DNA from: a virus | Direction: 5' to 3' (one strand) | DNA length: 36,487 nt | Virus record (IMG/VR): IMGVR_UViG_3300009366_001445 | Location: 1 to 36,487 of that record | In this document: positions 3,992 through 24,380 of the stretch, piece by piece | How the letters are laid out: each line of letters starts with the position of its first letter | How positions within the stretch are numbered: position 1 is the first letter of the stretch | Notes under the pieces: generated by a model | Seen by the model: the letters and a program-made list of their open reading frames with translations, nothing else | What the model was told of the DNA's origin: nothing | Databases searched by the model: none | Translations under genes and position numbers: made by a program

Positions 3992-4008
3992 GTATGTCCC
4001 CGATGGAT

Positions 4009-4034: not shown

Positions 4035-4043
4035 GTGTGTCAT

Positions 4044-4059: not shown

Positions 4060-4079
4060 GGGATCGCTGCAAACTCATG

Positions 4080-4259: not shown

Positions 4260-4261
4260 AG

Positions 4262-6839: not shown

Positions 6840-7306
6840 TACATCCTCCCTTGATTGATATTCGACCAGGCGAAGTCGAAGCGATACTTGGCCGGCGCCT
6901 TCTTCGGCCGGGTGACCGTGACGCCAAGCCCAAGCCAGCCCTGGCGCACGATCTGCGCATCGACCTGGACAGAATCGACGACACCATCCTGGACGAGCCA
7001 GAGCAGTGCCTCCTGCCCGTATTCCCTCGCCTTCGCTACCACCTCGGCCAGCTGCTTTTCCCGCGCCAGCAGCCAGAGGCGCGATCCAATCCGCCGGCCT
7101 TCGCCGGCACCGCCGAGGGCGTCCCCCCACCAGCCGCGCTTCGACGAGCTGGCATCGGGCAAGGGGTCGTCGTCCTCTGCACGCCGGTCGCTGAAGAGCG
7201 AGATCAGGATTGCTGTCTTGATGTCGTGATCCGTGGCCAGGTCGCCATTGAGCAAAGCGATGTCGCCGCGATGATTGGCGGCGTCCCAAAAGATCTCGAT
7301 GTCCAT
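6839..7306 (-). CDS. Baseplate protein gp46-like (GP46 family)
   Basis: A 155-aa baseplate wedge component of the Mu gp46 family (the P2 gpW / T4 gp25 position). N-terminus MDIEIFWDAANHRGDIALLNGDL, then the family motif ILISLFSDRRAEDDDPLPDASSSKRGWWGDA, which is very similar across Mu-like phages. The final part is a beta-hairpin-rich tail (RYRFDFAWSNI-like). It sits between the gp45- and gp47-like genes with one-base overlaps on both sides, so the wedge subunits are made as a coupled set. Confidence 0.92.
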   Translation of the reverse strand: MDIEIFWDAANHRGDIALLNGDLATDHDIKTAILISLFSDRRAEDDDPLPDASSSKRGWWGDALGGAGEGRRIGSRLWLLAREKQLAEVVAKAREYGQEALLWLVQDGVVDSVQVDAQIVRQGWLGLGVTVTRPKKAPAKYRFDFAWSNINQGRM

Positions 7307-9068: not shown

Positions 9069-9070
9069 CG

Positions 9071-10270: not shown

Positions 10271-10281
10271 GCGTCTCTCCT

Positions 10282-11880
10282 TTACATCATGGCCAGACCG
10301 GCCGTGACATCAATGTCCATCGCATTGCCGGCGCGTGTCAGCTCCGTCACCTTCGCGCCCGCACCTTCCACCTGGATCTTCAGCGTGCCGCCGACTTCGG
10401 TTTTACCCGCGCTGGCGGCTTTTGCTGCAGTGAGGTTGTTGGCACGGTCGGTGGCAAACGAGAACTTGAAATCCTTCATCGCGTCCGGCATCAGTTTGTC
10501 CGGAAGGATCGTCTTGATGATCCCAAGGATGCCGTTGGCAAGGCCCTGCCAGCTCTCCAGCCATACCTGGATCATGCCGTCGAAGAACCCGACATCAAAA
10601 ACGCTCTTGATCCGATCCCAGGCACCGCCGACGTAAGAAACGATGTTGTCCCAGTTTTTATAGATGATCACGCCGAAGGCCACCACGCCAGCGATCAGCA
10701 GACCGATGGGATTGGCCAACATCACACCCCACAGTGCCTGCAGGCCGCTCATCGCTGCCGGCAACATAGTCCAGGCGAAGACGCTCAGCTTCACCGTCGC
10801 CACCCCGAGCGCCCAGCCCAGCTGCCCGAAGGCCAGCAGCACCGGCGACATCAGGCCGCCCAGCATGATGAGCGTGGACACCGTCGGGCCGAAGGCGCTA
10901 TTCATGGCCTTGAAAACGGAGCCCACTTTCTGCGCCACTTGCCATAGCCCTTGGAACAACTGCACACCGATATCGATGATGGCTGGCAGCTTCTCCAGGA
11001 ACGCGTCGAATTTGCTCTCGATCAAGCCGCGGTTGGCGACGGTCCATTTCTGGATGTTCTCAAACATGGGCTGGATCTTTTCGGCCAGCTTCAGGCCGAG
11101 GAAGTTCTTGATGCCCTCGAAGGTGCCTTGCAGCCGCTTCCACATCTTGTCAAAGGAGTCGGCCTGCTGCAGCTGGTCGTCGGTAAAGATCCGACCGTCC
11201 GCCGTCATCTGCTCATACTTCTCGCGGATACCATCAGCACCACGGTTCATGGTGCCCATCATGATCTCGCCGCTCTTGCCCATCAGCTCCAGCAGCACGG
11301 CTTGCTTCGCGATGTCCTTGTTGGAGCCCTTGAAGGCATCGGCCATGCGCTCAATCACCTCTTCGGGCTTCAGGCCCTTGAGCTGGGCCATCGAAATCCC
11401 GACGCCGGCAAATGCCTGCTGCTGTTCCTTCCCACCGGCCAGGGCCAGGCCCATGGCCTTCTTCAGCTTACCCATGGCAGAAGCGGCATCTTCCATGGTG
11501 CCGCCGTCCTCCTTTACCAGCTCACCGAAGACCTGCAGCTTCTGTGCGTTGATCTGGTATTTCTCAGCCAGATCTCCGACGCTATCAGCGGCCTCGGCGG
11601 CAGCGATACCGAAGTGCAGGATCTCGCCGACCGTACCGGCATACACGCCGCCGATGCCCACCGTGGTGACGGCCAGCCCTACCAGCGACTTGGACAGCGC
11701 CCCGACCGCCGATTTCACTTTGCCAAGACCAGTGGCGTCATACAGCTTGCCCAGCGATGCATGCAGATCACCGGCAGGCTTGATCAATCCCTCGAGCTTG
11801 GTGCCGATCTCGTTCAACGTGGCCGACGCCTTGTCGATGGCCGAGATCACCAGCTCGGATTTTGTTTGTTGAGTTCCCAT
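10282..11880 (-). CDS. Tail tape-measure protein
   Basis: A 532-aa tape measure that sets tail length and passes into the host envelope on injection. ATG at 11880 (MGTQQTKSELVISAIDKASATLNEI). The N-terminal 130 residues are helical and Ala/Lys-rich; residues about 65-95 are hydrophobic (VGLAVTTVGIGGVYAGT). Two or three strong membrane-prone helices lie between about residues 340 and 420 (STLIMLGGLMSPVLLAFGQLG, LMLANPIGLLIAGVVAFGVIIYKNW-like). The C-terminal 110 residues are more polar. The length suggests a fairly short tail; I give no number. A terminator-like hairpin lies 23 bases upstream of the start. Confidence 0.92.
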   Translation of the reverse strand: MGTQQTKSELVISAIDKASATLNEIGTKLEGLIKPAGDLHASLGKLYDATGLGKVKSAVGALSKSLVGLAVTTVGIGGVYAGTVGEILHFGIAAAEAADSVGDLAEKYQINAQKLQVFGELVKEDGGTMEDAASAMGKLKKAMGLALAGGKEQQQAFAGVGISMAQLKGLKPEEVIERMADAFKGSNKDIAKQAVLLELMGKSGEIMMGTMNRGADGIREKYEQMTADGRIFTDDQLQQADSFDKMWKRLQGTFEGIKNFLGLKLAEKIQPMFENIQKWTVANRGLIESKFDAFLEKLPAIIDIGVQLFQGLWQVAQKVGSVFKAMNSAFGPTVSTLIMLGGLMSPVLLAFGQLGWALGVATVKLSVFAWTMLPAAMSGLQALWGVMLANPIGLLIAGVVAFGVIIYKNWDNIVSYVGGAWDRIKSVFDVGFFDGMIQVWLESWQGLANGILGIIKTILPDKLMPDAMKDFKFSFATDRANNLTAAKAASAGKTEVGGTLKIQVEGAGAKVTELTRAGNAMDIDVTAGLAMM

Positions 11881-11902
11881 ACGAATCTCCCGGGCAAAAG
11901 AA

Positions 11903-11932
11903 AAGCCCCGCCAGGTTTCCCAGGCGGGGCTT
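11903..11932 (-). terminator. Intrinsic terminator just before the tape measure
   Basis: Minus strand: AAGCCCCGCC (11932-11923) and GGCGGGGCTT (11912-11903) form a perfect 10-bp stem around a 10-base loop and are followed by TTCTTTTG. It lies inside the late operon, between the 61-aa gene and the tape measure, so it must be attenuated or overridden. Confidence 0.7.
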
Positions 11933-11949
11933 GTCAAAGTTGCGTTACG

Positions 11950-12135
11950 TTAGGAGAAGAGGATGCCGAAGAGGCCGATCACAAAGCGCAGGCCGATCCA
12001 GGCGATACTGGCAATCAGGATCAGACCGAGCACTGCCGGAACAAGAGCAATGCCACCAGCACCGAAGGCCAAAAGGCCGATCAGGCCCGTCTTGAGGTCC
12101 GGCTTCGCTTTGGGAGATTGAGTGGAGTCATCCAT
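11950..12135 (-). CDS. 61-aa membrane protein between chaperone and tape measure
   Basis: A short protein with a charged N-terminus (MDDSTQSPKAKPDLKTG) and two hydrophobic segments at residues about 18-38 (LIGLLAFGAGGIALVPAVLGL) and 40-60 (IASIAWIGLRFVIGLFGILF). The ribosome site is weak (the best purine-rich stretch is far upstream), so translation may be coupled or low. It sits exactly between the frameshifted chaperone and the tape measure, where Mu has no gene. I do not recognise the family. A role in envelope passage or superinfection exclusion is possible but unsupported. The composition is convincing for a membrane protein. Confidence 0.6.
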   Translation of the reverse strand: MDDSTQSPKAKPDLKTGLIGLLAFGAGGIALVPAVLGLILIASIAWIGLRFVIGLFGILFS

Positions 12136-12165
12136 GCGCCCATTCTAGCAAAGCTCCCCCGACCG

Positions 12166-12731
12166 TCAAGATGAACCTTGCAGCCGCTGTTGCGCCTTGA
12201 TCACCTCACTGGCCTCATTGGCCCAGAAGTCCAACTCCCAGCTATCCATTTCCCACATCTCGCTCGGCGGAAAGTGGTAGAAGTGCGCGATCAGGCCGAT
12301 GGCGTCACGCCAGTGCCACGTCCCAAAAAAGGCGTCACCTTCCCCACCAGCTCGATCACATCGAATGCATCCAGCTCATCGAGCGTCTCCGCCGGCAAGC
12401 CATTCATCTCCGCGACGAACTTCAGCATACCGCCGAACTTACCGTCCGACGGCGTGGGATCGATGCCCTTCATCTCTTTCCCCTTCAGCCGGCGCAGTTT
12501 CAGGAAGGTAATGTCGGAGCCGTCCGCCGCCTTGATCGGGAACGCCAGGTCATAGCGGTCTTCCAGCGCCACCTTGATGCCGGCAGCCGGGACCGGAGCG
12601 GCACCGTCGCCCACCGGAGCGGCTACCGGCGTTCCCATGTTGGGCGGCAGAGTGGGCGATGGTGCAGACGTCTGCACAGGGACGGCGGTCGGTCCGTTCA
12701 GTTGGGGTTCGTAGAATTGATCGTAACTCAT
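12166..12731 (-). CDS. Tail assembly chaperone, -1 frameshift product (gpE+E'-like)
   Basis: About 188 aa. The first 136 codons are shared with the shorter form, then -1 slippage on T_TTT_TTG (12330-12324) moves ribosomes into a frame that runs 52 more codons to the TGA at 12166-12168. The added part begins GTWHWRDAIGLIAHFYHFPP and continues S-E-M-W-E-M-D-S-W-E-L-D-F-W. This is the classic pattern of the second domain of P2/Mu tail chaperones, where PPSE and an aromatic acidic segment bind the tape measure. The frame has no start codon with a ribosome site of its own, so it only makes sense as an extension. Phage P2 uses the same heptamer. Confidence 0.88.
12291..12731 (-). CDS. Tail assembly chaperone, zero-frame product (Mu gp41 / P2 gpE-like)
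   Basis: A 146-aa protein ending 11 codons after the slippery site. The first about 55 residues are a low-complexity Pro/Ala/Val/Thr linker (PTAVPVQTSAPSPTLPPN). The folded part begins about IKVALEDRYDLAFPIKAADGSD, with KLRRLKGKEMKGIDPTPSDG and the end DELDAFDVIELVGKVTPFLG, as in tail assembly chaperones of the gp41/gpE type. It should bind the tape measure before the tube polymerises, the longer frameshift form being a minor component. ATG at 12731 overlaps the tube stop (ATGA). The linker contains one copy of the dispersed palindrome. Confidence 0.88.
   Translation of the reverse strand: MSYDQFYEPQLNGPTAVPVQTSAPSPTLPPNMGTPVAAPVGDGAAPVPAAGIKVALEDRYDLAFPIKAADGSDITFLKLRRLKGKEMKGIDPTPSDGKFGGMLKFVAEMNGLPAETLDELDAFDVIELVGKVTPFLGRGTGVTPSA
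12324..12330 (-). other. Programmed -1 ribosomal frameshift site T_TTT_TTG
   Basis: In the zero frame the codons read CCT TTT TTG GGA, so the heptamer T TTT TTG is exactly placed for tandem slippage. The -1 frame continues open with a conserved chaperone domain. I did not identify a firm downstream pseudoknot. Confidence 0.85.
12662..12677. repeat. Dispersed 16-bp palindrome, copy 3 (perfect), inside the chaperone gene
   Basis: GTGCAGACGTCTGCAC encodes PVQTSAP in the disordered linker of the chaperone, a place where protein constraint should be weak. Confidence 0.9.
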
Positions 12732-13090
12732 GCTTGCTCCGCAGGTGCGCCGATGAATTTGAGCGATGCCTTGCCGTCACCAGCTTGCGGGCCAATCGGC
12801 GTAGCGAGGCTGGCACCACGCTGAATGTACTGCTGCCCGGAATCGCATTTGAAGACCACCGTACCATTCTGAATGGCATTGATGGCAGCAATGTCGGTCT
12901 TGCCACTGACAGCGATATCGAATTCGATCTCGCTATGCACCGGCTTCTCGGTCCAGCCGAGATAACCAAAGTCCCCGGTCACGGGCGTGCGCTCAACCCC
13001 GCCGGGGTTGATCTTTGCCGTGCCGGGCAGACTGGCGATGCTCTCGCCATTGACGCGGATGAATGCGCGTCCGAAATACAGATCTGCCAT
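12728..13090 (-). CDS. Tail tube protein (Mu gp40-like)
   Basis: A 120-aa tube subunit. N-terminus MADLYFGRAFIRVNGESIASLPG, then TPVTGDFGYLGWTEKPVHSEIEFDIAVS and the C-terminal KASLKFIG beta-strand, matching the Mu/P2-like tube family. Hexameric rings of it build the inner tube around the tape measure. It lies 12 bases after the sheath stop and overlaps the chaperone start (ATGA), so chaperone and tube are made from one coupled message. Confidence 0.92.
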   Translation of the reverse strand: MADLYFGRAFIRVNGESIASLPGTAKINPGGVERTPVTGDFGYLGWTEKPVHSEIEFDIAVSGKTDIAAINAIQNGTVVFKCDSGQQYIQRGASLATPIGPQAGDGKASLKFIGAPAEQA

Positions 13091-13102
13091 GTTTCTCTCC
13101 TG

Positions 13103-14593
13103 TTACAGACGGAACTGAATCTGCGCCGCAAAGATGCGGAACTGATTGACCAGGTTGGGCGGCAGGCGCACGTCGACGCGGTTCACGTCGGCCGCGTTGC
13201 GTGCCACCAGCAAGTCAGATTTGAACTGATCGATGTCTTCCATCAGCCCAGCGTCCACCCAATCCAGCGCGAGAGCGATCAGCTCGGCACGGATGTCCTG
13301 CGGCGTCACCAGCGCCTGGCCCGGCGCTGCCTGCGTGCCATCGTTGGCCAGCTTGTAGCGCGGGAAGCGCTGCGCGATACGTGCCCGAACCTGGTAGCGC
13401 ATCAGCGACAGGGTGTACATCGTCTCCACGTCGCGATAGCTCGGATCTACCAGGCCGGCCGCATTGGTCTTGTAGTTCGTCACCGCGCGCTCGATCACCA
13501 CATTGCCGCCATTGTCGACCACCGTGGTGGCACCGCCGTACGACAAAATGTTATTGCGCTCGGCGCGGGTGAAGCGCTTGTTTGCCGGTGCCGGCAGACG
13601 GTTCGGCAAAGCCAGCGTCTGCAGCGGGCGGGCCGGGTCAATGCCCAGGTAGTACGCCGCCAGCGCGCCAGCCAGTGCTGCCTTCTCCCATACCGGACCT
13701 GGTTCACCACCAGTCTCGCAAGTCCAGGTGGCGATGTGCGAGTTGTTACGCGCACTCAATGCCGCATTGAGCGAGCCCACCGTACCGCGCAGACCGTTAT
13801 GGCACTGGCCGTCGTTCTGCAGCAGCGGGCCCCAGCGGTTATTCAGTTCGTTCTCCATCAATGCCATATTGGGGGCATCGTTGAAGCACATGATGATGTT
13901 GTTGTACTGCGTGGCACCGATGTTGGACAGCGCGGTAGCAATGCTAGGGTCTGCCGTGCCACCGGAGAGCTGTACCAGTGCCACACCCAAACCTGCCGGC
14001 GTCTGCTGGCTCAACGGGTAATAGTTGAGCTGCATCATGAGATCGTTCGTCAGGGCACCTTTGTGGCGTGCCGTGACGGTCACCACACCGACGTTGCTGG
14101 AGGCTGTCACAACCAGGTCCGGCATCGCGTTGATCGCTGCCGCCAGTGCGGCGGCAATGGTGGTCGGCGTGTCAGTGGTAGAAACCGCGACCTGCACCGC
14201 GTCTTCGCCAATGTACAGATTCAGCGTACCGCCCTGCGTAGCCGCGCCGGTAATGGTGATGGTGCCGGAGGCAGCCGTGCCGGCACCGTTGTCGGGCACT
14301 GCCACCACCCAGGTCTCGATGGTATCGGTCACATCGAAGATGCTGCCCACCATCGAGGCACCGATGGAGCCGCGTCCGAATGCAGCAACGCCACCATCCT
14401 TGGAGCTGATCTGATACGGCGCGTTGGCCGGCGCGATGCCAGTGGCCAGCGACTGCGCGATCAGCAGGATGCGCTGCGGCATGTTGACGGGCGCGTTGAT
14501 GGCCTTACTGTTGTCGAACTCGACATACTGACCGGGGGTCAGCAAGTTGACCGGAATCTGGTTGAAGGAAATGGAAGCGGCAGCGGCCATCAT
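13103..14593 (-). CDS. Tail sheath protein (Mu gp39-like)
   Basis: A 496-aa contractile sheath subunit that wraps the tube and drives injection. N-terminus MMAAAASISFNQIPVNLLTPGQYVEFDNS, then MPQRILLIAQSLA. The C-terminal polymerisation domain is intact (TMYTLSLMRYQVRARIAQRFPRYKLAND, GQALVTPQDIRAELIALALDW, ending RIFAAQIQFRL). The insertion domain at about residues 120-230 is Ala/Thr/Val-rich, as in Mu. ATG at 14593 overlaps the preceding stop (ATGA). Its presence shows the virion is a myovirus type. Confidence 0.95.
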   Translation of the reverse strand: MMAAAASISFNQIPVNLLTPGQYVEFDNSKAINAPVNMPQRILLIAQSLATGIAPANAPYQISSKDGGVAAFGRGSIGASMVGSIFDVTDTIETWVVAVPDNGAGTAASGTITITGAATQGGTLNLYIGEDAVQVAVSTTDTPTTIAAALAAAINAMPDLVVTASSNVGVVTVTARHKGALTNDLMMQLNYYPLSQQTPAGLGVALVQLSGGTADPSIATALSNIGATQYNNIIMCFNDAPNMALMENELNNRWGPLLQNDGQCHNGLRGTVGSLNAALSARNNSHIATWTCETGGEPGPVWEKAALAGALAAYYLGIDPARPLQTLALPNRLPAPANKRFTRAERNNILSYGGATTVVDNGGNVVIERAVTNYKTNAAGLVDPSYRDVETMYTLSLMRYQVRARIAQRFPRYKLANDGTQAAPGQALVTPQDIRAELIALALDWVDAGLMEDIDQFKSDLLVARNAADVNRVDVRLPPNLVNQFRIFAAQIQFRL

Positions 14594-14808
14594 GCACCTC
14601 CTTCTTCATGCTGAGCCGAAGCCTGGTTCTGGCCAGCGGCATCTTCAGCTTCTTCTTCCGCCGGTTCTTCTTCGGTCACGTCGCCATCGGCCAGGCGTCG
14701 CAGCCAGAAAGAATCGTTCTCGTCCACGTTGATACCGGCGTTGGTCAATTCACGGCCGGTCACGGGGTCGCGCACGATCCTCCCTTCTACGGGATAGATC
14801 AGTTTCAT
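14590..14808 (-). CDS. Small Mu gp38-like protein (DUF2635)
   Basis: A 72-aa protein beginning MKLIYPVEGRIVRDPVTGRELTN. The core GRIVRDPVTG...DSFWLRRLADGDV is the DUF2635 signature and occurs just before the sheath gene in Mu-like phages. The C-terminal 25 residues are an acidic tail (EEEPAEEEAEDAAGQNQASA). Function is unknown in the family; the position suggests a role in tail sheath or tail terminator assembly. Confidence 0.85.
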   Translation of the reverse strand: MKLIYPVEGRIVRDPVTGRELTNAGINVDENDSFWLRRLADGDVTEEEPAEEEAEDAAGQNQASAQHEEGGA

Positions 14809-14818
14809 TGTTTTGCTC

Positions 14819-15358
14819 CTATTGAGGAAGGGTGATTCTTGCGGATGCGTCGATCTGGCCATCCGGCGTGGCCGGCAGCGGCGGATCATTGCGTGGCGAG
14901 GACATGTCGATCTCCACCGAGACCACGGTCAGATCATCTGCGACTGGCTGCGGCTCCCAGATATATTTGGCCTCGTAGTTCATGGTCAGCATTGCCGCTT
15001 CGCTGGAAGCGGCCCCGGTGTAATCCGGATCGCTTCCTTTGTAACGGAATGCCACCGTCAAGCCTCCCAGGCGCTGATCGACCGCCAGCAGCGCCTCGAT
15101 GGGCGCCGCCAACTCATCCAGCCGGTCGACCACGTCATGACCGTCCTGGACATAGACCTGCACCATGAACATCACCGTACGCAGCTCCTGCCACTGGTCG
15201 CTCAGATCTTCAGCTGTCTCGGCCCCGTTGATCACGTTGGCGAAGGGCAACTTTCTATTCGACAGAGGCTTCGTCCTGGCCTCGAAGAGATTGACCAGGG
15301 CAGGATGCGGCTCCAAGAGCTGGTAGATCTTCTCGCGGATTTGCTTGCGGATATGCAT
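14819..15358 (-). CDS. Probable tail terminator (Mu gp37 position)
   Basis: A 179-aa protein, MHIRKQIREKIYQLLEPHPAL at its start, followed by NRKLPFANVINGAETAEDLSDQ and a beta-strand-rich centre (LRTVMFMVQVYVQDGHDVVDRLDEL). The fold pattern (helix, then alternating strands, then ADDLTVVSVEI) resembles gpU/gp37-type proteins that cap the tail and join it to the head. Position between the FII-like joiner and the DUF2635 gene supports this. Certain family membership needs a profile search. Confidence 0.68.
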   Translation of the reverse strand: MHIRKQIREKIYQLLEPHPALVNLFEARTKPLSNRKLPFANVINGAETAEDLSDQWQELRTVMFMVQVYVQDGHDVVDRLDELAAPIEALLAVDQRLGGLTVAFRYKGSDPDYTGAASSEAAMLTMNYEAKYIWEPQPVADDLTVVSVEIDMSSPRNDPPLPATPDGQIDASARITLPQ

Positions 15359-15360
15359 GG

Positions 15361-15663
15361 TCAGGCCTCGATGATCTGTGCGATGGTGAGCTTGCCGTCT
15401 TCGACTGCCTTCGGTGGCTGCTGCACGCGCCACTGGACTCCGTTGATCGTCAGGACCTCCTCTTCCGCCAAGCCCGGCAGCGAGCCGGTGATATACATGA
15501 TGGTGGAGGTGTTCTGCACAATCAGCTGATCGCCAAGCACCAGATCATCCGGGTTATCGAAGATAACCAGAACGTCTAGTGCCTGGCCGCCCGTGGACGG
15601 TTGCCAGTGAGCGTTGTCGCCGAAGTCCCGGAAGAACATAGCCAGGTCTTCAGCCAGCCTCAT
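15361..15663 (-). CDS. Head-tail joining protein, lambda FII-like
   Basis: A 100-aa protein: MRLAEDLAMFFRDFGDNAHWQ, then VLVIFDNPDDLVLGDQLIVQNTSTIMYITGSLPGLAEEEVLTI-type strands ending in NGVQWRV. In siphovirus lambda, gpFII completes the head and receives the tail. Here a homologue connects a lambda-type head with a Mu-type tail, so it lies at the junction of two modules. Its start overlaps the preceding stop (TGATG). Similarity is from pattern and length; no search was run. Confidence 0.72.
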   Translation of the reverse strand: MRLAEDLAMFFRDFGDNAHWQPSTGGQALDVLVIFDNPDDLVLGDQLIVQNTSTIMYITGSLPGLAEEEVLTINGVQWRVQQPPKAVEDGKLTIAQIIEA

Positions 15664-16034
15664 CAGCTGGCCTTACCGGCATCGCCCGCGTTTCCGACAG
15701 CGGGGGCTGGCGCGGCGGCCTCATCCTGCTGAGCCTGGAACGCGGCGGCGATGCCGTTGGCGATCGCCGCAGCCAGCGCTTCGTGATCCAGCGCCACCGA
15801 GGCGGTTGCTGCAGCGGCCGGCAGCTCCACCTTCAGCGCGCGGCTGCGCGCCTCTTCGACCTTCAGAGCCGCAGCGCGGTCCTTGTCTTCCGCATATTCC
15901 AGCTGGTGCGCAGCATCGCCGACTTCCTGCTCCAGCGTGATGACGTCGCCCTCGCTGTAGACCTTTTCACTTCCCTTGCCGTCCGTGGTGCGATAGATGA
16001 AGCCCTCGCGGACGATGTAACGTTTGGCTGCCAT
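15663..16034 (-). CDS. Small protein between capsid and FII-like gene
   Basis: A 123-aa protein. N-terminal 35 residues form a compact beta segment (MAAKRYIVREGFIYRTTDGKGSEKVYSEGDVITL), followed by helices (EQEVGDAAHQLEYAEDKDRAAALKV) and an Ala/Pro-rich C-terminus. Its position matches lambda FI or a decoration/stabilisation protein. The KVYSEGDVITLEQEVG strand-turn-helix is common in small head proteins of other phages. The function is not certain. Thirty bases upstream lies palindrome copy 4. Confidence 0.6.
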   Translation of the reverse strand: MAAKRYIVREGFIYRTTDGKGSEKVYSEGDVITLEQEVGDAAHQLEYAEDKDRAAALKVEEARSRALKVELPAAAATASVALDHEALAAAIANGIAAAFQAQQDEAAAPAPAVGNAGDAGKAS

Positions 16035-16063
16035 TTTGGCTTTCCTTTCAGAGATTCATGGAT

Positions 16064-16079
16064 GTGCAGACGTCTGCAC
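16064..16079. repeat. Dispersed 16-bp palindrome, copy 4 (perfect)
   Basis: GTGCAGACGTCTGCAC in the 89-base gap between the capsid stop (16124) and the next gene start (16034), one of the few gaps in the late operon. Confidence 0.9.
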
Positions 16080-16123
16080 CGACGCCACCCCATGCTTGGG
16101 CCGGCGGTACTCAGCTCAGCCGA

Positions 16124-18112
16124 TTACTGCGGCAGAGCGTCGGACATGACAGAGAAGCTGGCGGCGTGGCGGGCAGCGATATCGACCGACTGCATGGCGC
16201 GCAGCAGCACACCGCCTTGCTTGAAGGCGTTGCTGTCATACGGGTTGGGCATGATTTCCAGAGCGCCCCACTCGCCGATCAGCAGCTCGGACCAGTTGCC
16301 GAAGAAGAGCTCGGAGCAGACGCCGGCCGAGGTGCCCTTCGTCAACGTCGAGCGCACCTGGTTGGAACGCGCGACCGGGTAACCGTTGATCTCACCGGGC
16401 GTGCCCGAACGCTGGCCACCAGGGCTGTTCGTCCACAGGTACTGGCCGGTGGTCGCTTTCAGCTTCTTCAGCCAGCCGACCGACTTGGCATTGGCCAGAT
16501 AGGACATCGAGTCGACATCGGCATTGGCTGTGGCAACGGCGGTTTCCATGTCGATCAGGTGATCGATGGTCAGCTGGGCACCATTGGTGCCGCCGACAAC
16601 CGAGCCGACGCCCGACATGTTGGCAATGCCCAGCGGCATACCACCGGTACCGGTGCCGGACAGCGCGGCCAGGTCGATACCCAGCGCCATTTGTGCGATC
16701 AGGTCCGCACGGGCCAGCATCTCAATGTCAGGCGTGGCCTGGATCAACATCTGGCGAGTGATGGCCGAATAGGTACCCAGGCTTTTCAGCGTCAGGCTGA
16801 CCTTGTCGAAGGTGGCTTCGGACTCGGTCAAGTTGCCGCCTTCAGTCACCCAGAAGGTACTGGAGGCACCGTTCTGGCGCGGGATATCCACGTTGCCCAC
16901 CAGGCCCGAGAGAATGGTGGCACCGAGCTGGAAGACACGGGCGCGGTTGCGCAGGATGTCGATGAAGCTGCCCGACAGCAGATTGGTGGCAACCATCACG
17001 CCACCAGTAGCCGCAGCGCCGGCTGCATACTGGGCACGCTGCGCGAAGGGAACGTTGGTCGGCATGAAGAAACCGCTGGTCGGCTTGCCCATGCGCTTGC
17101 TGATATCGGTCGAGACCTCCAGTTCGAAGCCTGCCTTCTTCCAGTCGTTCGACAGAACAGCGTTGATCGCGCGCAGCATCGAGTAGCCAGCCTTTTCCTT
17201 CTCGGTCAAGTCCGGCGAGTAGCCGTCGCCCATGTTGGCCACCGGGGAGGCCTTGCTCTTGAGCTGCAGATCCAGGACCGCGCCGCGCGCTTCCGAGATC
17301 GAGGCGCCCTTCTGGATCAAGCCACGGCGGACCTCATCAGGCACGCCGTGCTGACGGCACATACTGTCGATCTCGTCGATGCGCTTGCGCTCTTCTTCGG
17401 CGCCCTGGCTGCGTGCCGCGCTATGGTCGACCGGGTTAGCGACGCCAACGCCACCGGCACCTCCGCCGGTCGCGCCATCGTCCGCCTGGTTGCGCAGAAC
17501 GCGCGGGGAGTGACGGTGCTTATACATATCTTGTTGCTCCATGTTGTCGGCCGGGGCCGGTTGGGATTGATGGGTCTGCGCTGCAGCCCGGGGATCGCTG
17601 GCATTGAGACTGCGACCGACACCCACAGTCGGGTCGGCCGGCACCGTTACCAGCGAGATCTCGTACGGTTCCCAGTCGGTCGCCGTATAGATTTCGTTCT
17701 CCACGTCATCCTCGAATTTGAAGACGCGGTATTGAAAGGAGGCATTGACCAGGATGCCGTCGTCGCACTGGTTCAAAGCCCAGTCGCCACGCTCATCCTT
17801 GCCGAAGCGAACCGTCACATAGCCGCGACGGTCCGTGCCCAGTTCGAGCGATTCCACGATACCCAGCAGGTCGTCGCGGTTGTGGTTGAAGAGGAGCGGC
17901 ATGCTGCCCTGGCGCACGCCGGTGCGCATGGCGCCGGGGGCATGACTCAGGATCTCGGTGCCGTACCACATGTCGCAGGGCTCCTCCGAGCTGAAGGGGA
18001 AGCGCACGGTCCGCGCTTCCATATCCACTGCCAAGGGTCCATCTGCCCGCAGAGTCAGCAGCCGCAACTGCGACGCGCCGACCACGGGCGGTTTTCTCGT
18101 TTTCGTTCCCAT
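16124..18112 (-). CDS. Prohead protease fused to major capsid protein (HK97 type)
   Basis: A 662-aa single polypeptide. Residues about 1-180 are a U35/HK97-type prohead protease, with the likely catalytic His in LLFNHNRDD (residue 77) and Ser in VNASFQYR (residue 125). Residues about 180-300 form a linker and scaffold-like helix (EEERKRIDEIDSMCRQHG). From about 350 on is the HK97-fold capsid (VMVATNLLSGSFIDILRNRARV, the E-loop-like WVTEGGNL, the A-domain, ending LPQ). Start at ATG 18112 because GGAG is 5 bases upstream; GTG at 18115 is next to it. The protease presumably cuts itself and the linker away during maturation. No separate protease gene or scaffold is present. Confidence 0.92.
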   Translation of the reverse strand: MGTKTRKPPVVGASQLRLLTLRADGPLAVDMEARTVRFPFSSEEPCDMWYGTEILSHAPGAMRTGVRQGSMPLLFNHNRDDLLGIVESLELGTDRRGYVTVRFGKDERGDWALNQCDDGILVNASFQYRVFKFEDDVENEIYTATDWEPYEISLVTVPADPTVGVGRSLNASDPRAAAQTHQSQPAPADNMEQQDMYKHRHSPRVLRNQADDGATGGGAGGVGVANPVDHSAARSQGAEEERKRIDEIDSMCRQHGVPDEVRRGLIQKGASISEARGAVLDLQLKSKASPVANMGDGYSPDLTEKEKAGYSMLRAINAVLSNDWKKAGFELEVSTDISKRMGKPTSGFFMPTNVPFAQRAQYAAGAAATGGVMVATNLLSGSFIDILRNRARVFQLGATILSGLVGNVDIPRQNGASSTFWVTEGGNLTESEATFDKVSLTLKSLGTYSAITRQMLIQATPDIEMLARADLIAQMALGIDLAALSGTGTGGMPLGIANMSGVGSVVGGTNGAQLTIDHLIDMETAVATANADVDSMSYLANAKSVGWLKKLKATTGQYLWTNSPGGQRSGTPGEINGYPVARSNQVRSTLTKGTSAGVCSELFFGNWSELLIGEWGALEIMPNPYDSNAFKQGGVLLRAMQSVDIAARHAASFSVMSDALPQ

Positions 18113-18130
18113 CACGACTCCAAAAAGAAA

Positions 18131-18158
18131 AACCCGCCCAGGTAGCCCTGGACGGGTT
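18131..18158 (-). terminator. Intrinsic terminator between portal and protease-capsid
   Basis: Minus strand: AACCCG-T-CCAGG (18158-18147) pairs with CCTGG-G-CGGGTT (18142-18131), a 12-bp stem with one mismatch and a 4-base loop, followed by TTTCTTTTTG. It lies in the 67-base gap between the two genes, so leftward transcription of the late operon must cross it. Confidence 0.7.
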
Positions 18159-18179
18159 CGTTGTTTCCGATGCTGGCGG

Positions 18180-19784
18180 TCAGTCTTCGCTGGCGGCCGG
18201 GTCTTCTCCCTCTACCCCGGCTTCTGCCGGGGGATCGGGTTGCGGGTCGTCGGCGCCGCCCACGGCCTTGTCCTTCTCGTCGACCTTGGCCGGATCAGTA
18301 TCAAAGACCAGGCCCATGTCGTCGGCCATATCCAGCTCGGCGCGGCGGGCGCGGTACGTATCCTCGATGTCGGCGCCGCCGTTCGTCTGCGCGATCACAT
18401 CGCTGGCCGACATGAAGCCAGAACGCACGGCCATCTTGTACGCCAGCACTTCCTTCGTCGGGTCAATCCAGCTCCAGCCGCGCGGCTTCCAGCGCTCGCG
18501 CTGATATTTACGCTGCTTGCTGTAGAAGTCAGGAATGTTCACCTGGCCGGCCAACACTGCGGCATTGAGCCACTCGCGCTTGATCGGGCTGCAGAGATTG
18601 CGGATCAGCCAGCCCTGGAGCAGTCGCCACAGATCTCTGTCATCCAGCAGCGACAGGCGTGAGCTGCTGTAGTTGCTCTGCGAATAGTCGCGGGAGAGAG
18701 ATTCGTAGCTCACCCCAATACCAGCGGAGATCTCGCGCAGCATGAACCGCATGAACGGCTCCAGCGCCGCATTCGGCCGCGACGGATTGAAGCCCACGAA
18801 ATCTTCGCCCGGCGCCAGGTAACGGAAGGTGCCTGGCTCCGCATCCATCACCTGACGATTGGCAACGACAGCATCAGGGACAGGATTCTCCTGGGCCTTG
18901 ATGAAGCCGACGATGTTGGCGGATGCGCGGGCAGCGACAATCTCGGCCTCGCCATAGCCCTTCATGTCGTTCAGCCGTCGCAGCACCGTGTGCATCCATG
19001 GCACACCGCGCGTCTGCGGCCAGCGGTCCACCAGGTAGAGGTGGATGATTTCGTCGGCCGGCACCCGGATGTAATTGCTCGCCTGGAAGGTCCGGAACTG
19101 GAAATCGCCGGGGTGCGACGGGTACAGCCAGTAAGCAGCCGGCCTGCCCCACTGATCGACCTCGACGCCCATGCGGATAGCGTTACCGTTCGGTGCCATC
19201 GCGGTCTGCCAGTTGTCCAGCAGGCGATCCGCCTCCAATACCTCCAGGGCCAGTGGAGCCTTGCCACCACCAAAGGGCTGGCGCACCTTCCTTACCAGCA
19301 CCTCTCCATCCTCTGCAACGCGGCCAATGGCGAAGCGCAGCAGATCGGGCATATGGAGCAGGCCGCCCGTATGGCAGATCTTCGCATCACACCACTCGGC
19401 GTACTCTTCCTCGATGGCATCGTTGAGGGAAGTGAGTAGCTTTCCTCGCGAGTCTGCCACCTGTGCCTGGAAGCCTACGCCAGTGCCGACCACATTGTTC
19501 TGGATGATCCGGATCGCATTCTTGGCATGGCCGTTGTCGCGCACAAGCTCACGCGAGCGAGCGCGCAGCAAGCGCAGGCTGGTCAGGATCTCGGAATCAG
19601 CCGTGGTATTCAAGGCCGTCCAATCCGATGTGAGGCGATTGAACTGGGCGCCGGCGTACATCCGCTGGGCTTCAGCCGCTGCTGCGCGCTTGCGCTGCGC
19701 TTCGCGCTCGGCGGTCCATTGCCGCAGCACCACCGAGCCCCTCTGCGCCACGCGCTCTTCGTTATACCAACTGGTCGAGGTCAT
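18180..19784 (-). CDS. Portal protein, lambda gpB family
   Basis: A 534-aa portal of the lambda B type, a dodecameric ring through which DNA enters and leaves. ATG at 19784 (MTSTSWYNEERVAQRGSVVLRQW) overlaps the preceding stop (ATGA). Typical signatures: LRARSRELVRDNGHAKNAIRIIQNNVVGTG, EEEYAEWCD, VEDGEVLVRK-like AEDGEVLVRKV, then IIHLYLVDRWPQTRGVPWMHTVLRRLNDMKGY, and SYESLSRDYSQSNYSSSRLSLLDD. The tail is acidic and repetitive (EDPAASED). All conserved regions are present and the length is normal. Confidence 0.95.
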   Translation of the reverse strand: MTSTSWYNEERVAQRGSVVLRQWTAEREAQRKRAAAAEAQRMYAGAQFNRLTSDWTALNTTADSEILTSLRLLRARSRELVRDNGHAKNAIRIIQNNVVGTGVGFQAQVADSRGKLLTSLNDAIEEEYAEWCDAKICHTGGLLHMPDLLRFAIGRVAEDGEVLVRKVRQPFGGGKAPLALEVLEADRLLDNWQTAMAPNGNAIRMGVEVDQWGRPAAYWLYPSHPGDFQFRTFQASNYIRVPADEIIHLYLVDRWPQTRGVPWMHTVLRRLNDMKGYGEAEIVAARASANIVGFIKAQENPVPDAVVANRQVMDAEPGTFRYLAPGEDFVGFNPSRPNAALEPFMRFMLREISAGIGVSYESLSRDYSQSNYSSSRLSLLDDRDLWRLLQGWLIRNLCSPIKREWLNAAVLAGQVNIPDFYSKQRKYQRERWKPRGWSWIDPTKEVLAYKMAVRSGFMSASDVIAQTNGGADIEDTYRARRAELDMADDMGLVFDTDPAKVDEKDKAVGGADDPQPDPPAEAGVEGEDPAASED

Positions 19785-20347
19785 GACGTAAACCTTACGT
19801 AGTAGTTTCTCGGGTTCGGGCCGCCCGTGGCAGCGGCCCTCTCTTCCTTCTCCCGCAGGACACGGCCACGCCAATAGTTCACCGCCTCGATCAGCTCTGC
19901 TGCGGTGAAATACTCGGCGTTGCGTGGCCCGATTGCATACTTCTTCGTCTTCTGGCCGCTGCCGGTCAGGTCGGCCAGCGCCTTCTCAGCATCGGCCAGC
20001 GCTCGCTGCGCCATGCTGCGCCCGTCGAACCCATCCGCCGTGATGGCTGCCAGGTTCGCCAGCACCTGCACCTGACCGCTGCCGGCGGTCACCCGCTCGG
20101 CACCCTTGGTCAGCACCGCTTGCCACCAGTAGGGGCCGGCCTGCAGGCCCTGACTGGCGGCAGCGGTCAGTGCAAATGCCCACCCGCCTGATCCGTCTGC
20201 TGCGCCTGGAAGGTCCAGCTTGGTCGGACCGCGCAGCGCAAACTGCAGCGTCCAGGCAGCACTGCTGTAGTCGGTGCCGCGCACGGCCAGCGCCGGTTCC
20301 TTCCACTGGAGCGAGTCGCCGGCCGTGAGTTCGGTTGGAATATTCAT
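19781..20347 (-). CDS. Head-tail joining protein gpW-like with an extra N-terminal domain
   Basis: A 188-aa protein between terminase and portal, the place of W in lambda. The last about 75 residues match the gpW plan: a helix (AQRALADAEKALADLTGSG), a beta hairpin (KKYAIGPRNAEYFTAAEL), a second helix (IEAVNYWRGRVLREKEER) and an aromatic end (YYVRF). Lambda W is about 68 residues. Here about 110 residues precede it, with alternating strands (SLQWKEPALAVRGTDYSSAAWTLQFALRG, GPYWWQAVLTKG) like an immunoglobulin-type beta sandwich. The extra domain is the odd feature. The gpW assignment is by pattern and position. Confidence 0.7.
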   Translation of the reverse strand: MNIPTELTAGDSLQWKEPALAVRGTDYSSAAWTLQFALRGPTKLDLPGAADGSGGWAFALTAAASQGLQAGPYWWQAVLTKGAERVTAGSGQVQVLANLAAITADGFDGRSMAQRALADAEKALADLTGSGQKTKKYAIGPRNAEYFTAAELIEAVNYWRGRVLREKEERAAATGGPNPRNYYVRFTS

Positions 20348-20349
20348 GG

Positions 20350-22419
20350 TTACCAGCTCGATGCTTTGAACCCGCCACCAGGACGGGGGAGATTAAATGA
20401 ACGTGGCTTCTTGGACGCCTGCGGTTGAGCTGGAGCCGACGCGGCCACAGGTTGCGCCGCCGGTACTGCTGACGGCGCCTCGAAGATGTCCTTCTGACGC
20501 ACGGCATCTTCCAACATCGCCCAGTGAGATTCCTTGTACAGATGAATCTTGAGCGACCTGGCCGCGTGCAGGGCGTACACCTCACAGTCCAGCGCCTCGT
20601 TGCGCACGCCCGACTTCTTCTGCCACACCTTCTTGTTGCGCAGCGTCCGGTGAGGCGCCTTGACCTCGCTGGTGATCTGCTCGTAGTAGTCCGGACGAAC
20701 AGCCTTGTACCAGTGCATCCGCCCCGGCCCCTTGCCCTGCAGACGAATCCGCCCAGCACCTGAGTCCTGCCCCAGCAGCAGATCCTTCGCCCGCTCGGTA
20801 CCGACCATGAAGGGCTTCACGCCAAACTTCGCCGCCTTGTTCTGCCGGTTCGTATCGATGGACGGACGTGGCGGCGCGAAGATCTCCCGACCATCGTCGG
20901 ATGAGGCCCCCTTCACCGCCAGATACCCACGGTTCAGCCGGTCACGGACGAAGGCATACACCGCGTCTGAAGTCTGGCCATCCGAGGAGTCGATGGACAC
21001 GGCACGAATCGACAACTGACTTCCGCCTTCGTGCGGGATCGGCTTGGACAACAGCTGATCCAGGTCAACCCACGCCCCCTCATTCGGGATCAGGGTCTTG
21101 CCATGGATCTCGCCCCAATAGAGCAGCCAGCTTTCCTCCCCGCGCCCCCAGACACGGATCACCACCGCGATCCGGTCATGCTGCACGTCGCAACCTGCCG
21201 TGACAACAAGGCCGCCCCATGGGACAACCAGTTCCTCGTAATCCTCGGCCCGGTCCTTCAGTGCGTCCAGATCGGGCAGCTCGCTGGCGTATTCATACGA
21301 CTTGCCCTCGGTGTTGTTGCGGAAGACGCGCATCTTCGTATCGTCACCCTGCGCCAGCGCATGTTTCGCCGACAGATACTTCTCCACCAGGTGCGGCATG
21401 GTCGAGCCAGGGAACGGTGAGTACACCTCGTTCAACCAAAAGCCGGCCACGCCGTGGAAGGTAGCGGTCGCCCGCCACATTCCCTTGCGCACGTTGCGGT
21501 TCTTCTCGGCATCGGTCCATAGCGCACCACAGTGCGGGCAACGGTACCGGGCCGATGATGGGACGGCATGGCCGAAGACTTCATGGTGAATCTCCGGGTT
21601 GTCCAGCCAGACGACGTTTTCCCACTCTAGGACATGCGCCTCGCCGCACTCATGGCAGGGAATAAAGAACTTGCGCTGGTCCGACAGCAGGTAGGCCTGC
21701 TCGATCTTGCTGACGCCGGCAATCGTCGGCGTGCCGCCGAAGATGATCTTGCGGCGAGCGAAGGTCTTGGTCCGCTCCTCCAGGGAAGAGATCGTGTCGC
21801 CCTGCTCCTTCACGTTGTCGTTACAGTCGTCCGGCTCTTCCACCGCAACAACGGGCGCCGGCGTCGACTTGACCGAGGCCGGCGAATTCGAGCCGACGAA
21901 CTTGAGGAAGCCACCCGGGAACTGCTTGAAGTCGACTCGGTTTTCCTTATCCCGCTTCTTCGAGACCGGGATCTTGTCCATCAGCCGAGGCGTAGCCTCG
22001 ACCATGGGCACGAACTTTTCGTCGTTGTATTCCTTCGCCGCCTTGTCCTTCGAGAACATGACGATGATCGGGCAAGGATCGATATCGATCCGCTTGCCCA
22101 GGTAGTTGTTGAGCACGCCATCGGTCCAGGCGATCTGCGACGATTTCTGTGCGACCACCTTGAAGACGGTCGGATCGTCCAGCGCCTGATGGATGCCATG
22201 CACCCAGGGCGTGATGTCCGGGTTGTACCGGCCAGGCTTGGCCGATGCTTTAGCCGACAGCCCCCGATGGCGCCGCGCCCACTCGGTCGTCGTCAACTTC
22301 TCTGGCGGCACCAGCGTGGCCACCAGGCGCGTCAGCAAATCGCCCACCGCCTGGGTCGTATCGGGCGAGCTGGCCGAGGGCGGCAAACGTGTGTTCATTG
22401 AGGAGAGAGACATCGACAT
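20350..22419 (-). CDS. Large terminase subunit, lambda gpA family
   Basis: A 689-aa packaging motor and cos-cleaving nuclease. ATPase: Walker A-like KSSQIAWTD (residues about 92-100, the lambda-type form with SSQ instead of GKT) and Walker B VVAVEEPDD. A zinc ribbon follows (CHECGEAH ... RYRCPHCGALW). The nuclease domain starts about residue 400 (VTAGCDVQHDRIAVVIRVWGRG). C-terminal: YKAVRPDYYEQITSEV, EALDCEVYALHAARSL. The start is unclear: ATG at 22419 and 22398 both lie inside the small terminase gene, and family similarity begins near DLLTRLVATLVPP. Terminases of this class usually make cohesive ends, so the virion genome is probably cos-ended. Confidence 0.94.
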   Translation of the reverse strand: MSMSLSSMNTRLPPSASSPDTTQAVGDLLTRLVATLVPPEKLTTTEWARRHRGLSAKASAKPGRYNPDITPWVHGIHQALDDPTVFKVVAQKSSQIAWTDGVLNNYLGKRIDIDPCPIIVMFSKDKAAKEYNDEKFVPMVEATPRLMDKIPVSKKRDKENRVDFKQFPGGFLKFVGSNSPASVKSTPAPVVAVEEPDDCNDNVKEQGDTISSLEERTKTFARRKIIFGGTPTIAGVSKIEQAYLLSDQRKFFIPCHECGEAHVLEWENVVWLDNPEIHHEVFGHAVPSSARYRCPHCGALWTDAEKNRNVRKGMWRATATFHGVAGFWLNEVYSPFPGSTMPHLVEKYLSAKHALAQGDDTKMRVFRNNTEGKSYEYASELPDLDALKDRAEDYEELVVPWGGLVVTAGCDVQHDRIAVVIRVWGRGEESWLLYWGEIHGKTLIPNEGAWVDLDQLLSKPIPHEGGSQLSIRAVSIDSSDGQTSDAVYAFVRDRLNRGYLAVKGASSDDGREIFAPPRPSIDTNRQNKAAKFGVKPFMVGTERAKDLLLGQDSGAGRIRLQGKGPGRMHWYKAVRPDYYEQITSEVKAPHRTLRNKKVWQKKSGVRNEALDCEVYALHAARSLKIHLYKESHWAMLEDAVRQKDIFEAPSAVPAAQPVAASAPAQPQASKKPRSFNLPRPGGGFKASSW

Positions 22420-22792
22420 TCACTTCATACAAGGTGGACAGCTCGGACGCCAGCTTGTCGTCACGTGCCAGCAGCTCGGAGCGGAATGCCCCGACCATGT
22501 TCATCAACTGCCCCTCCAGCTGCTCGACGTTGATCAGCAGGCCGCGCTTCTCGGCGACCTGCAGCAGCTTCAGCTCCCGGTCAACCCGCTCGGTCAGCAC
22601 GCGCTCGCGCACCAGATCGAGACCGTCTTCCGACTTGTGGCCGGAGGCCTGCGCGCGCAGCTGGCGGATGTACGCCTTACGGATCTCATCCATGTCCGCC
22701 GTCTGCCAGACCACGCCCAGTTTTTCGAGCATGCGACTTACGGCCGACTGGTCCAGATCCAGATGGTCGGCAATTTGTTGCTGTGTGGGCAT
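22250..22792 (-). CDS. Small terminase subunit (DNA recognition)
   Basis: A 180-aa protein with an N-terminal winged helix-turn-helix (MPTQQQIADHLDLDQSAVSRMLEKLGV), as in Nu1-type small terminases that bind cos. A helical middle follows (ERVDRELKLLQVAEKRGLLINVEQLEGQLM) for self-assembly. The C-terminal 45 residues (from about LARYDPGGGRFADAPGG) lie in the overlap with the large-subunit gene and have an unusual Gly/Ala/Asp/Arg composition that looks imposed by the other frame. ATG at 22792; no strong ribosome site is seen. The nearest possible cos sequence is 60-90 bases upstream. Confidence 0.85.
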   Translation of the reverse strand: MPTQQQIADHLDLDQSAVSRMLEKLGVVWQTADMDEIRKAYIRQLRAQASGHKSEDGLDLVRERVLTERVDRELKLLQVAEKRGLLINVEQLEGQLMNMVGAFRSELLARDDKLASELSTLYEVNVDVSLLNEHTFAALGQLARYDPGGGRFADAPGGHAGAAREVDDDRVGAAPSGAVG

Positions 22793-22880: not shown

Positions 22881-22932
22881 CCTGATTATTTTTTAAGCAA
22901 CACGGGTCGACCTGCTTATTTTTTAAGCAACA
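22881..22932. repeat. 22-bp imperfect tandem repeat at the 3' end of the gpZ-like gene
   Basis: Two copies (22881-22902 and 22911-22932), 30 bases apart, differ at one base. Each contains TTATTTTTTAAGCAACA. The second copy spans the last codons and the stop of the gpZ-like gene; the first lies just after the stop. It looks like a duplication of the 3' end, and each copy contains an A/T-run and a short stop codon. Confidence 0.7.
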
Positions 22933-23509
22933 GGTAGTTGATCTCCTGCGCCAAGACCTTCGGGAACTGCTCCTGCACCCTGGCCATCACCTTGTCCTGC
23001 ACGGTTTTGTTGCTGAAGCCCTTGGGCACGCTGACTGTGAAGAGCTCACCGATAGGCAGGCGACCACGACCGAACTTGAAGCGACCGAACGCTTGCCCTG
23101 TCTGCTGGAACGAGCCCTTGTATCCACCACGGGCGAACACACCACGGTGGCCGGATCGCATCGTCCGGATAAACGCATGGGGAACGGTGATCGTCTTGCC
23201 CTTGATCCTGACAGTGACACCGGCCTTGGACTGGCGCGCATTGAAGGCGATCATCGGCAGCGGCTTACCTTCTGCGGTGACAACCGCCTGCAGCGATCCA
23301 CGTGCAGCCCGGCGGATCGAGATGCTCTTGCTGATAACGCGGGAGCTGATCTGGTATTGATCCTTGATCTCCCGAGCCGCCGCAGTCTTACCTTGGGCCG
23401 CGACCTTATTGATCGCGCGGGTGGTGGCCTTATCACGGACGCCCGAGGCAAGCTTGGTCATCTGCGCCGCAGCCTTACCAATATCGGTCCGGACATCGAA
23501 GCGGAACAT
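22916..23509 (-). CDS. Minor tail protein Z-like (tail completion)
   Basis: A 197-aa basic protein of the lambda gpZ type, which joins or completes tails. ATG at 23509 (MFRFDVRTDIGKAAAQM) follows GGAG by 7 bases. An upstream GTG at 23536 overlaps the palindrome and has no ribosome site. Seen: ATTRAINKVAAQGKTAAAREIKDQYQISSRVI, typical of gpZ, then IKGKTITVPHAFIRTMRSGHRGVFAR, PIGELFTVSVPKGF and the C-terminal EQFPKVLAQEINYLLLKK. It is the first gene of the late operon, ahead of the terminase. That is far from the other tail genes and unusual compared with lambda, where Z is in the tail block. Confidence 0.8.
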   Translation of the reverse strand: MFRFDVRTDIGKAAAQMTKLASGVRDKATTRAINKVAAQGKTAAAREIKDQYQISSRVISKSISIRRAARGSLQAVVTAEGKPLPMIAFNARQSKAGVTVRIKGKTITVPHAFIRTMRSGHRGVFARGGYKGSFQQTGQAFGRFKFGRGRLPIGELFTVSVPKGFSNKTVQDKVMARVQEQFPKVLAQEINYLLLKK

Positions 23510-23593: not shown

Positions 23594-23625
23594 AAAGCCC
23601 CAGAAAATTTCTTTTCCAGGGCTTT
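23594..23625 (-). terminator. Terminator in the late leader (tR'-like)
   Basis: Minus strand: AAAGCCC (23625-23619) pairs with GGGCTTT (23600-23594), and the inner segment CCAGAAAA/TTTTCTGG-like bases extend the stem with two wobble pairs around a GAAA tetraloop. It is followed by TGCTTTTTC. It lies about 20-50 bases downstream of the start of the late promoter at 23653-23682, exactly where lambda has tR' after pR'. Confidence 0.7.
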
Positions 23626-23652
23626 AAGCGCAACTGCGTCGAGTGTGGCGAA

Positions 23653-23682
23653 AATATAAGGCAACTGTCCCAGACGCGTCAA
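23653..23682 (-). promoter_or_regulatory. Sigma70-type promoter for the late operon (pR'-like)
   Basis: Minus strand: -35 TTGACG (23682-23677, 5 of 6), an 18-base spacer, -10 TATATT (23658-23653, 5 of 6). Transcription should start about 23646. It sits immediately after the stop of the regulator gene (23679) and upstream of the terminator and the whole late block. This is the best promoter match found in the window. Confidence 0.7.
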
Positions 23683-24380
23683 CTGCTTTTTCCGGCTGTG
23701 GATAATTCCACCGGTGCGGGGATGATCCCCTGCTCAATAAAGTGCCGCGCCAGCCGCTGGAGCGCTGCCGCCTCCAACTGCCGCACATGACTGCGAACTA
23801 CGGCGCTCGCACGATGGTATGTGGACTTGGAACACCCAAACGCCGCTGCGAGGTCACGTACCGAAATCTTAGTCTTGATGTGATTCGCAAACTGACGGGC
23901 CAACAATCCATCTACCGCCATGGCGGGAACATTCTGGAGAGCCGGACGCAGCCAGTCCGAGAGTTCCCTTATCGCAGCAGCTCGCTCATGTGAGAAAGCA
24001 TATCGACGCGCGCCATTAACATCCTCGTATTCCGTCGAACCAAAACGCGCACGTACGACCATCGCCTCAATCCTGGGCAGATGGTGATTCACAGCGGCCA
24101 CGATCATCGCGCACTGAGCACGGATCTCATCGTCGGTCAGCCCAGAGAAATCGATGCTACCAGCAGGTGTCCCCTTCAATGCCGAGAACCATTCTGCTTG
24201 CCCAGGTGTCAACTGGCGACCCGGCGCGTCCAGATCGATGGTCGCCATCATCTGCAAGAGCATGGAACGCGTCACACATCCTTGACGCGGCTCATTCGAG
24301 ATCACCAGGAACGCTGTGTGTAGTGCGTGGCCGACATCACGGAAGATCGCACCCTTATTTGCCTCAATTGCTACCAGCAT
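23679..24380 (-). CDS. Helix-turn-helix regulator, candidate late-gene regulator (Q-like)
   Basis: A 233-aa protein. The C-terminal part holds a helix-turn-helix (ISVRDLAAAFGCSKSTYHRASAVVRSHVR), of the sort found in sigma-factor-like and antitermination-type phage regulators. The rest is helical with no recognised catalytic motif (DIDLDAPGRQLTP, AIVAAVNHHLPRIEAMVVRARFG). It lies between the replication genes and the late operon. Its stop overlaps the -35 of the late promoter, where lambda has Q. Hence it is probably the late activator or antiterminator; which of the two cannot be told from sequence. ATG at 24380 with GAGG about 9 bases upstream. No named family is claimed. Confidence 0.72.
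   Translation of the reverse strand: MLVAIEANKGAIFRDVGHALHTAFLVISNEPRQGCVTRSMLLQMMATIDLDAPGRQLTPGQAEWFSALKGTPAGSIDFSGLTDDEIRAQCAMIVAAVNHHLPRIEAMVVRARFGSTEYEDVNGARRYAFSHERAAAIRELSDWLRPALQNVPAMAVDGLLARQFANHIKTKISVRDLAAAFGCSKSTYHRASAVVRSHVRQLEAAALQRLARHFIEQGIIPAPVELSTAGKSS

Follow-up and report, generated by a model that had tools for sequence, protein, structure and literature searches.

A predicted AlpA-type antiterminator gene and its candidate loading site ahead of a phage late operon

The phage analysed here appears to switch on its structural and lysis genes by reading through a terminator that lies close to the promoter. From the sequence, a structure model and analogy with a described system, we consider it very probable that a 233-aa protein encoded in the window (the whole stretch of viral DNA that was analysed, 36,487 nucleotides) is a processive antiterminator of the AlpA type, and that positions 23682-23594 hold its loading promoter and a terminator for a late operon of about 22 kb. 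The sequence and the predicted fold together reveal the layout of this region, its conservation, the homology of the protein to AlpA, the site, and the co-variation between recognition helix and site.

The minus strand of the window carries, in order, a gene for a CII-like activator (28060-27593), a gene for a VapE-type helicase/primase (27603-25096), a 141-aa ORF, the gene for the 233-aa protein (an ORF at 23679..24380), a short gap, and then genes for packaging, head, tail and lysis as far as about 1.3 kb. The plus strand has a CI-like repressor (29365-30132), and an integrase lies on the minus strand (35288-36445). The first gene past the terminator (22916..23509, minus strand) encodes a protein like minor tail protein Z or neck1 (PF06763, E 2.8e-11; phrog_27, E 1.9e-29), and its start, an ATG at about 23509 with GGAGA before it, was read from the sequence. 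The remainder of the predicted late operon (1293..22792, minus strand) comprises the small and large terminase subunits, portal, head/protease, tail sheath, tape measure, baseplate, fibre, endolysin, spanin and a DNA methyltransferase.

The methyltransferase gene (1293-2156, minus strand) sits at the far end of this predicted operon, past endolysin and spanin. Beyond the CI-like repressor lies a ParB-like ORF of 685 aa (31535-33592, plus strand). Between the helicase gene and the 141-aa ORF there is an inverted repeat with 54-nt arms (24774-24827/24927-24980), 81% complementary, 99 nt apart and rich in AGGTTGG; it is possibly a replication origin or a regulatory hairpin. A similar-looking AACCTCCC/GGTTGG repeat occurs upstream of the regulator gene in one related locus (L034).

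The end of the 233-aa gene and the start of the promoter share bases. That is, the TGA stop codon (23681-23679) falls inside the -35 element TTGACG (23677..23682, minus strand), which is kept in relatives. On the same strand, an 18-bp spacer separates this element from a -10 element, TATATT, at 23653..23658 (TTGACG-N18-TATATT, 23682-23653), read from the sequence. Setting the -10 element at -12 to -7 gives a predicted start at 23646, and the positions below are counted from it. Within the spacer lies TGGGACA (23666..23672), a predicted counterpart of the AlpA-binding element with GGGACA at -25 to -20, and over the predicted start lies CACACT (23642..23647, -1 to +5), a -10-like sequence that family conservation suggests is a sigma-pause element. 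An intrinsic terminator hairpin of the tR'/tB kind follows at 23594..23625 (+22 to +53), with a 14-bp stem, a 4-nt loop, then TGCTTTTTC, and a T-rich tail that runs to about 23585. Folding of the terminator stretch gives -18.5 kcal/mol (z -3.65), and none of 200 shuffles was as good. An earlier note on this DNA had described a stop codon overlapping the -35 element, a good promoter at 23682-23653, and a hairpin with T-tract just past it and ahead of any gene; each of these is borne out by the letters, the next gene starting only at about 23509.

We collected about 100 relatives of the 233-aa protein, mostly from Burkholderiales phages. Clustered at 80% identity, the 103 proteins with 190 or more residues form 47 groups, 46 of them usable; from a profile search of IMG/VR, 80 of the 147 contigs found were retained. 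Among genomes of Burkholderiaceae, the family of a Herbaspirillum frisingense MAG, a profile search found carriers in 23 of 393, whereas a class-level sample held one in 369, the starting genome itself; the family thus looks centred on Burkholderiaceae, as far as such thin sampling goes. No close DNA relative of the window was found among named phages. Databases label the relatives as hypothetical or of function unknown, and the 233-aa protein matches phrog_17923 (E 9.6e-46), a PHROG without known function.

The protein is, judged by sequence and predicted fold, a homologue of AlpA, the regulator of a programmed cell death pathway in Pseudomonas aeruginosa. With the single 233-aa sequence as phmmer query against all PDB sequences, AlpA is matched at E 1e-5; with profiles of 7, 14 and 45 relatives, it is matched at E 9.3e-9, 2.9e-11 and 1.1e-10, and AlpA (7xya/7xyb) is the sole significant PDB match of these profiles. 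The full-length alignment has 51 of 173 positions identical. In cryo-EM structures, the N-terminal part of AlpA forms a ring within the RNA exit channel, and its C-terminal helix-turn-helix sits on the DNA (PMC7969949, PMC9371919). Its DNA contacts R128, K138, S139, T140 and H142, which have been probed by mutation (PMC7969949, PMC9371919), correspond to R175, K185, S186, T187 and H189 in the 233-aa protein, identical in all five cases. The polymerase contacts E53 and M60 are kept as E85 and M92, and R34 aligns to M45 and is not kept. On every feature tested, this one polymerase contact excepted, the 233-aa protein falls within the AlpA family.

Membership of the lambda-type Q families was rejected for lack of any profile match: no Q or antitermination family appears among the Pfam, NCBIfam and PHROGs matches of the 233-aa protein at E up to 1. 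The impression in the earlier note that the protein does not look like lambda Q is thus upheld by the profile search, while its suggestion of an independent family stands only in part: the protein is separate from lambda Q by sequence, but it is not wholly independent, since it groups with Pseudomonas AlpA in both sequence and fold.

The fold was modelled from 45 sequences (pLDDT 79), after a model from six sequences (pLDDT 68) had been discarded because its N-terminal half was poor. The N-terminal part, which would form the nozzle, is less confident in the new model as well, with block pLDDT of 52-63 over residues 31-80. A Foldseek search returned both AlpA complexes as its top two and only significant matches (probability 1.00, TM 0.76-0.79 by target). 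Alignment of the model to 7xya_G by VIA-align gives Z 15.9 over 151 residues at an rmsd of 4.5; the two AlpA complexes score 15.9 and 15.0, and the next unrelated fold 5.7. Phage 21 Q, at Z 5.1 and an rmsd of 8.0 over 108 residues, lies within the unrelated background. TFIIB, cyclins and sigma factors, with VIA-align Z of 4-6, were set aside as common helical arrangements.

The DNA site resembles that of AlpA as well. AlpA recognises GGGACG (-25 to -20), each base pair of which counts, and its target has CACGAT (-1 to +5) as pause element, in which A(+1) and T(+5) are important (PMC9371919). GGGACA of the window, also at -25 to -20, is identical to the AlpA element at five of six bases. Just past alpA, the alpA-PalpB locus reads TTGACG-N3-TGGGACGATAAAGGTATAAATTCTCCACGATTG; at the same place the window reads TTGACG-N4-TGGGACAGTTGCCTTATATTTTCGCCACACTCG, which aligns to PalpB without gaps from TGGGAC to the pause element. 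The AlpA locus, fetched by way of the AlpA protein, has TTGACGACATGGGACGATAAAGGTATAAATTCTCCACGATTG shortly after alpA and then a hairpin. When a phage-family profile that contained no Pseudomonas sequence was run over the alpA contig, PalpB came out best, at 14.3 bits, and the next place scored 0.0. Almost fixed within the phage family, at about 89-93%, are the bases -26 T, -25 G, -21 C, -20 A, +1 A and +5 T, with A(+1) and T(+5) at about 93% each; the variable positions of the element are -24 to -22.

A site within the promoter, as predicted here, is also what a classical activator would have, one that binds the spacer so as to increase initiation from the late promoter while the hairpin merely insulates the early operon; the helix-turn-helix of the 233-aa protein, which weakly matches models of sigma region 4, would suit such a role. 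We nevertheless think activation unlikely. Both the -35 and the -10 element are near consensus unaided, a hairpin past the start would halt activated transcription too, and the conservation of A(+1) and T(+5) would be left without a role. Moreover, the homologue AlpA acts as a processive antiterminator and not as an activator (PMC7969949).

The element takes several forms at one fixed place in the family (GGGACA, GTTACA, GTTCCA, GCGACA, GTCCCA and others), which can be compared with the proteins beside it. Across 44 clusters we ranked all protein columns by their mutual information with each element base, taking z-values from plain shuffles that ignore the kinship of clusters; it is the ranking of the columns that is informative, because all columns share one tree. 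The best-coupled column for -24 is window residue 186 (S139 of AlpA), those for -23 are, tied, residues 186 (S139) and 185 (K138), and that for -22 is residue 189 (H142). Most other spacer positions couple best elsewhere. Proteins with K-S-T at 185-187 go with GGGACA in every case, including one (L110) that is distant from the window in sequence; another GGGACA protein (L018) has R-M-T in place of K-S-T. Proteins with H-M mostly go with GTTACA/G, and those with H-T-[KQ] with GTTCCA. This co-variation ties the 233-aa protein to the promoter site without any assumption about function.

The same result bears on the idea that the promoter and hairpin make up a stand-alone small RNA with a function of its own, the late genes being driven otherwise. 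A predicted leader RNA of 55-60 nt and the fair conservation of the transcript from +6 to +16 in the family would agree with that idea, to which we give very little weight: the co-variation between helix and site links the promoter-hairpin unit to the protein, by eye there is no family-wide RNA structure beyond the terminator, and the window holds no other match to the late-promoter profile. For that profile, a 44-nt model from the other family clusters with the window's own cluster left out, positions 23672-23629 (minus strand) score 45.4 bits, as against 0.4 bits for the second-best place in the window and a maximum of 13 in 30 Markov-simulated windows.

It is by comparison across the family, and not by the window itself, that the promoter-terminator layout rises above chance. 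In a 4-kb region of the window alone, promoter-like sites number 2 against 1.6 expected from shuffles, and terminator-like sites 4 against 3.6. In 44 of the 46 usable clusters, by contrast, a terminator follows a gapless 44-nt motif that is embedded in the promoter and lies near the regulator stop codon. With a folding-based terminator detector, promoter and terminator occur jointly beside the stop in 41, 37 and 35 of the 46 clusters when 8, 9 and 10 of 12 promoter matches are demanded; for control ORF ends in the same loci the figures are 11, 4 and 2 of 388. A stricter detector, restricted to perfect stems and small loops, finds the joint layout in 24 of the 46 clusters, versus 1 of 388 ORF ends and 2 of 1153 random stretches. 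Nearly all relatives show this arrangement, even where protein identity has fallen to about 35%. For example, five loci whose regulators are 72-98% identical have nearly the same letters from TTGACG to the hairpin, and in most of them the sequence past the hairpin differs. A regulator with 72% identity was found in the Herbaspirillum frisingense MAG, and in the named Burkholderia gladioli phage BgManors32, with a protein of about 34% identity, a promoter-like stretch (TTGCAA-N17-TAAATT) and a strong hairpin occupy the equivalent position. That the regulator's own terminator merely happens to follow a promoter-like sequence, as the shuffle-like signal counts in the 4-kb region would allow, has a negligible probability, contradicted as it is by this comparison, in which the arrangement is found in nearly all relatives and is about 100-fold commoner than at other gene ends.

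Some members of the family depart from the common form. In two loci, L026 and L107, neither a site nor a terminator can be recognised past the gene, and the C-terminus of the L026 protein is altered as well; both loci may have decayed or been rewired. An insert of about 100 aa occurs in the middle of the regulator in L114, L116, L117, L119-L123, L125-L127 and L129-L135, near a beta-hairpin (window residues 116-129) that AlpA and members of the L035/L110 type lack. The family may be wider still: L057 (1501-1911; E 1e-6), a distant relative in a genome of the genus group to which the Herbaspirillum frisingense MAG belongs, likewise has a promoter-like stretch after it and then a strong hairpin. 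Around AlpA itself, relatives 71-93% identical to it (L164-L174) lie on virus-classified contigs of 17-50 kb, and all have TGGGAC[GA]ATAAAGGTA after the gene. With an AlpA fragment as query, no match was found among named phages, and class-level genomes gave weak matches only.

Start site, termination, loading, read-through and timing in the window phage can be drawn by analogy with AlpA and Q. RNA polymerase would start by itself at about 23646 and, without the regulator, would end at the hairpin after 55-60 nt, and a leader RNA of this size would be expected in the lysogen. Early transcription would make the regulator, and late expression would come only afterwards. With polymerase held by sigma region 2 at the -10-like CACACT (-1 to +5), the C-terminal helix-turn-helix of the regulator would bind GGGACA (-25 to -20). 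The N-terminal part of the regulator would enter the RNA exit channel as a nozzle, in which terminator hairpins could not form, and polymerase would then read through into the late operon of about 22 kb. A single site would serve this whole operon, because the window has no second profile match.

We lean towards the broader view that Burkholderiales phages carry a large, unannotated family of AlpA-type late regulators, which reaches many mutually distinct DNA specificities through three or four residues of the recognition helix, and that AlpA with PalpB-tB in P. aeruginosa is a domesticated copy of such a phage module. If this is true, related phages would be shielded from one another's late regulators. 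In view of the behaviour of AlpA and its control of holin-like genes, the authors who described the Alp system suggested a prophage source (PMC7969949). The window family is what such a source would look like and supports the suspected origin: a phage counterpart with the same DNA contacts, a site that differs as GGGACA from GGGACG, and a pause element in the same position, ahead of real phage late genes. The regulator is new to the AlpA family and apparently unannotated; the mode of antitermination was already known. AlpA has been described as having no sequence relatives among antiterminators, and our search of the open-access literature (subscription papers and preprints lying outside it) found no paper on AlpA-type regulators of phage late genes. 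The result puts a name to the likely late switch in a large phage group where the regulator has so far been listed as hypothetical or of unknown function, and it makes about 44 natural pairs of protein and site available for probing a possible recognition code of Q-type antiterminators.

Known systems share parts of this arrangement. In phage lambda, the Q gene lies at the end of an early operon and is followed by the self-starting late promoter pR', with a Q element between -10 and -35, a sigma pause and the early terminator tR'. The window is predicted to match this layout in the end of the early operon, the self-starting promoter, the spacer element, the pause element and the early terminator. 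The earlier note had proposed a layout of the pR'-tR' kind, and the proposal gains strong support from the conserved layout, the spacer element, the element at -1 to +5, the terminator at about +22 and the homology to AlpA. By analogy the regulator resembles lambda Q with pR'/tR' in its probable mode of action, but by sequence it is outside that family, with no Q-family match and with its only strong PHROG match to a group without known function. To our knowledge, the excisionase-type AlpA of prophages and satellites is an unrelated protein that has the name alone in common, which can mislead a search. GafZ of the Caulobacter GTA, which we liken to the regulator by description only, is an antiterminator that acts via an element located, in a late-type promoter, between -10 and -35, but its element is palindromic and it works with GafY and IHF (PMC11150451). 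Phage 21 Q (PDB 6P1B, 6P18) uses a nozzle-type mechanism and has been published as similar in fold to AlpA (PMC9371919), but it loads two protomers where AlpA loads one. The closest likeness is to AlpA/PalpB-tB-alpB, with a homologous protein and a target promoter right after the regulator gene (PMC7969949, PMC9371919), a spacer element in the same position (-25 to -20; GGGACG for AlpA, GGGACA in the window), a -10-like element over -1 to +5, the same DNA-contact residues, and an intrinsic terminator before the first target gene. The two differ in that AlpA governs a chromosomal holin and cell-death operon, whereas the window regulator stands before the structural and lysis operon of a tailed phage; in the length of the protein, 233 aa with a beta-hairpin insert against 176 aa in AlpA; and in the start of the hairpin, at +22 in the window and at +54 (alpB) and +26 (PA0807) in the targets of AlpA.
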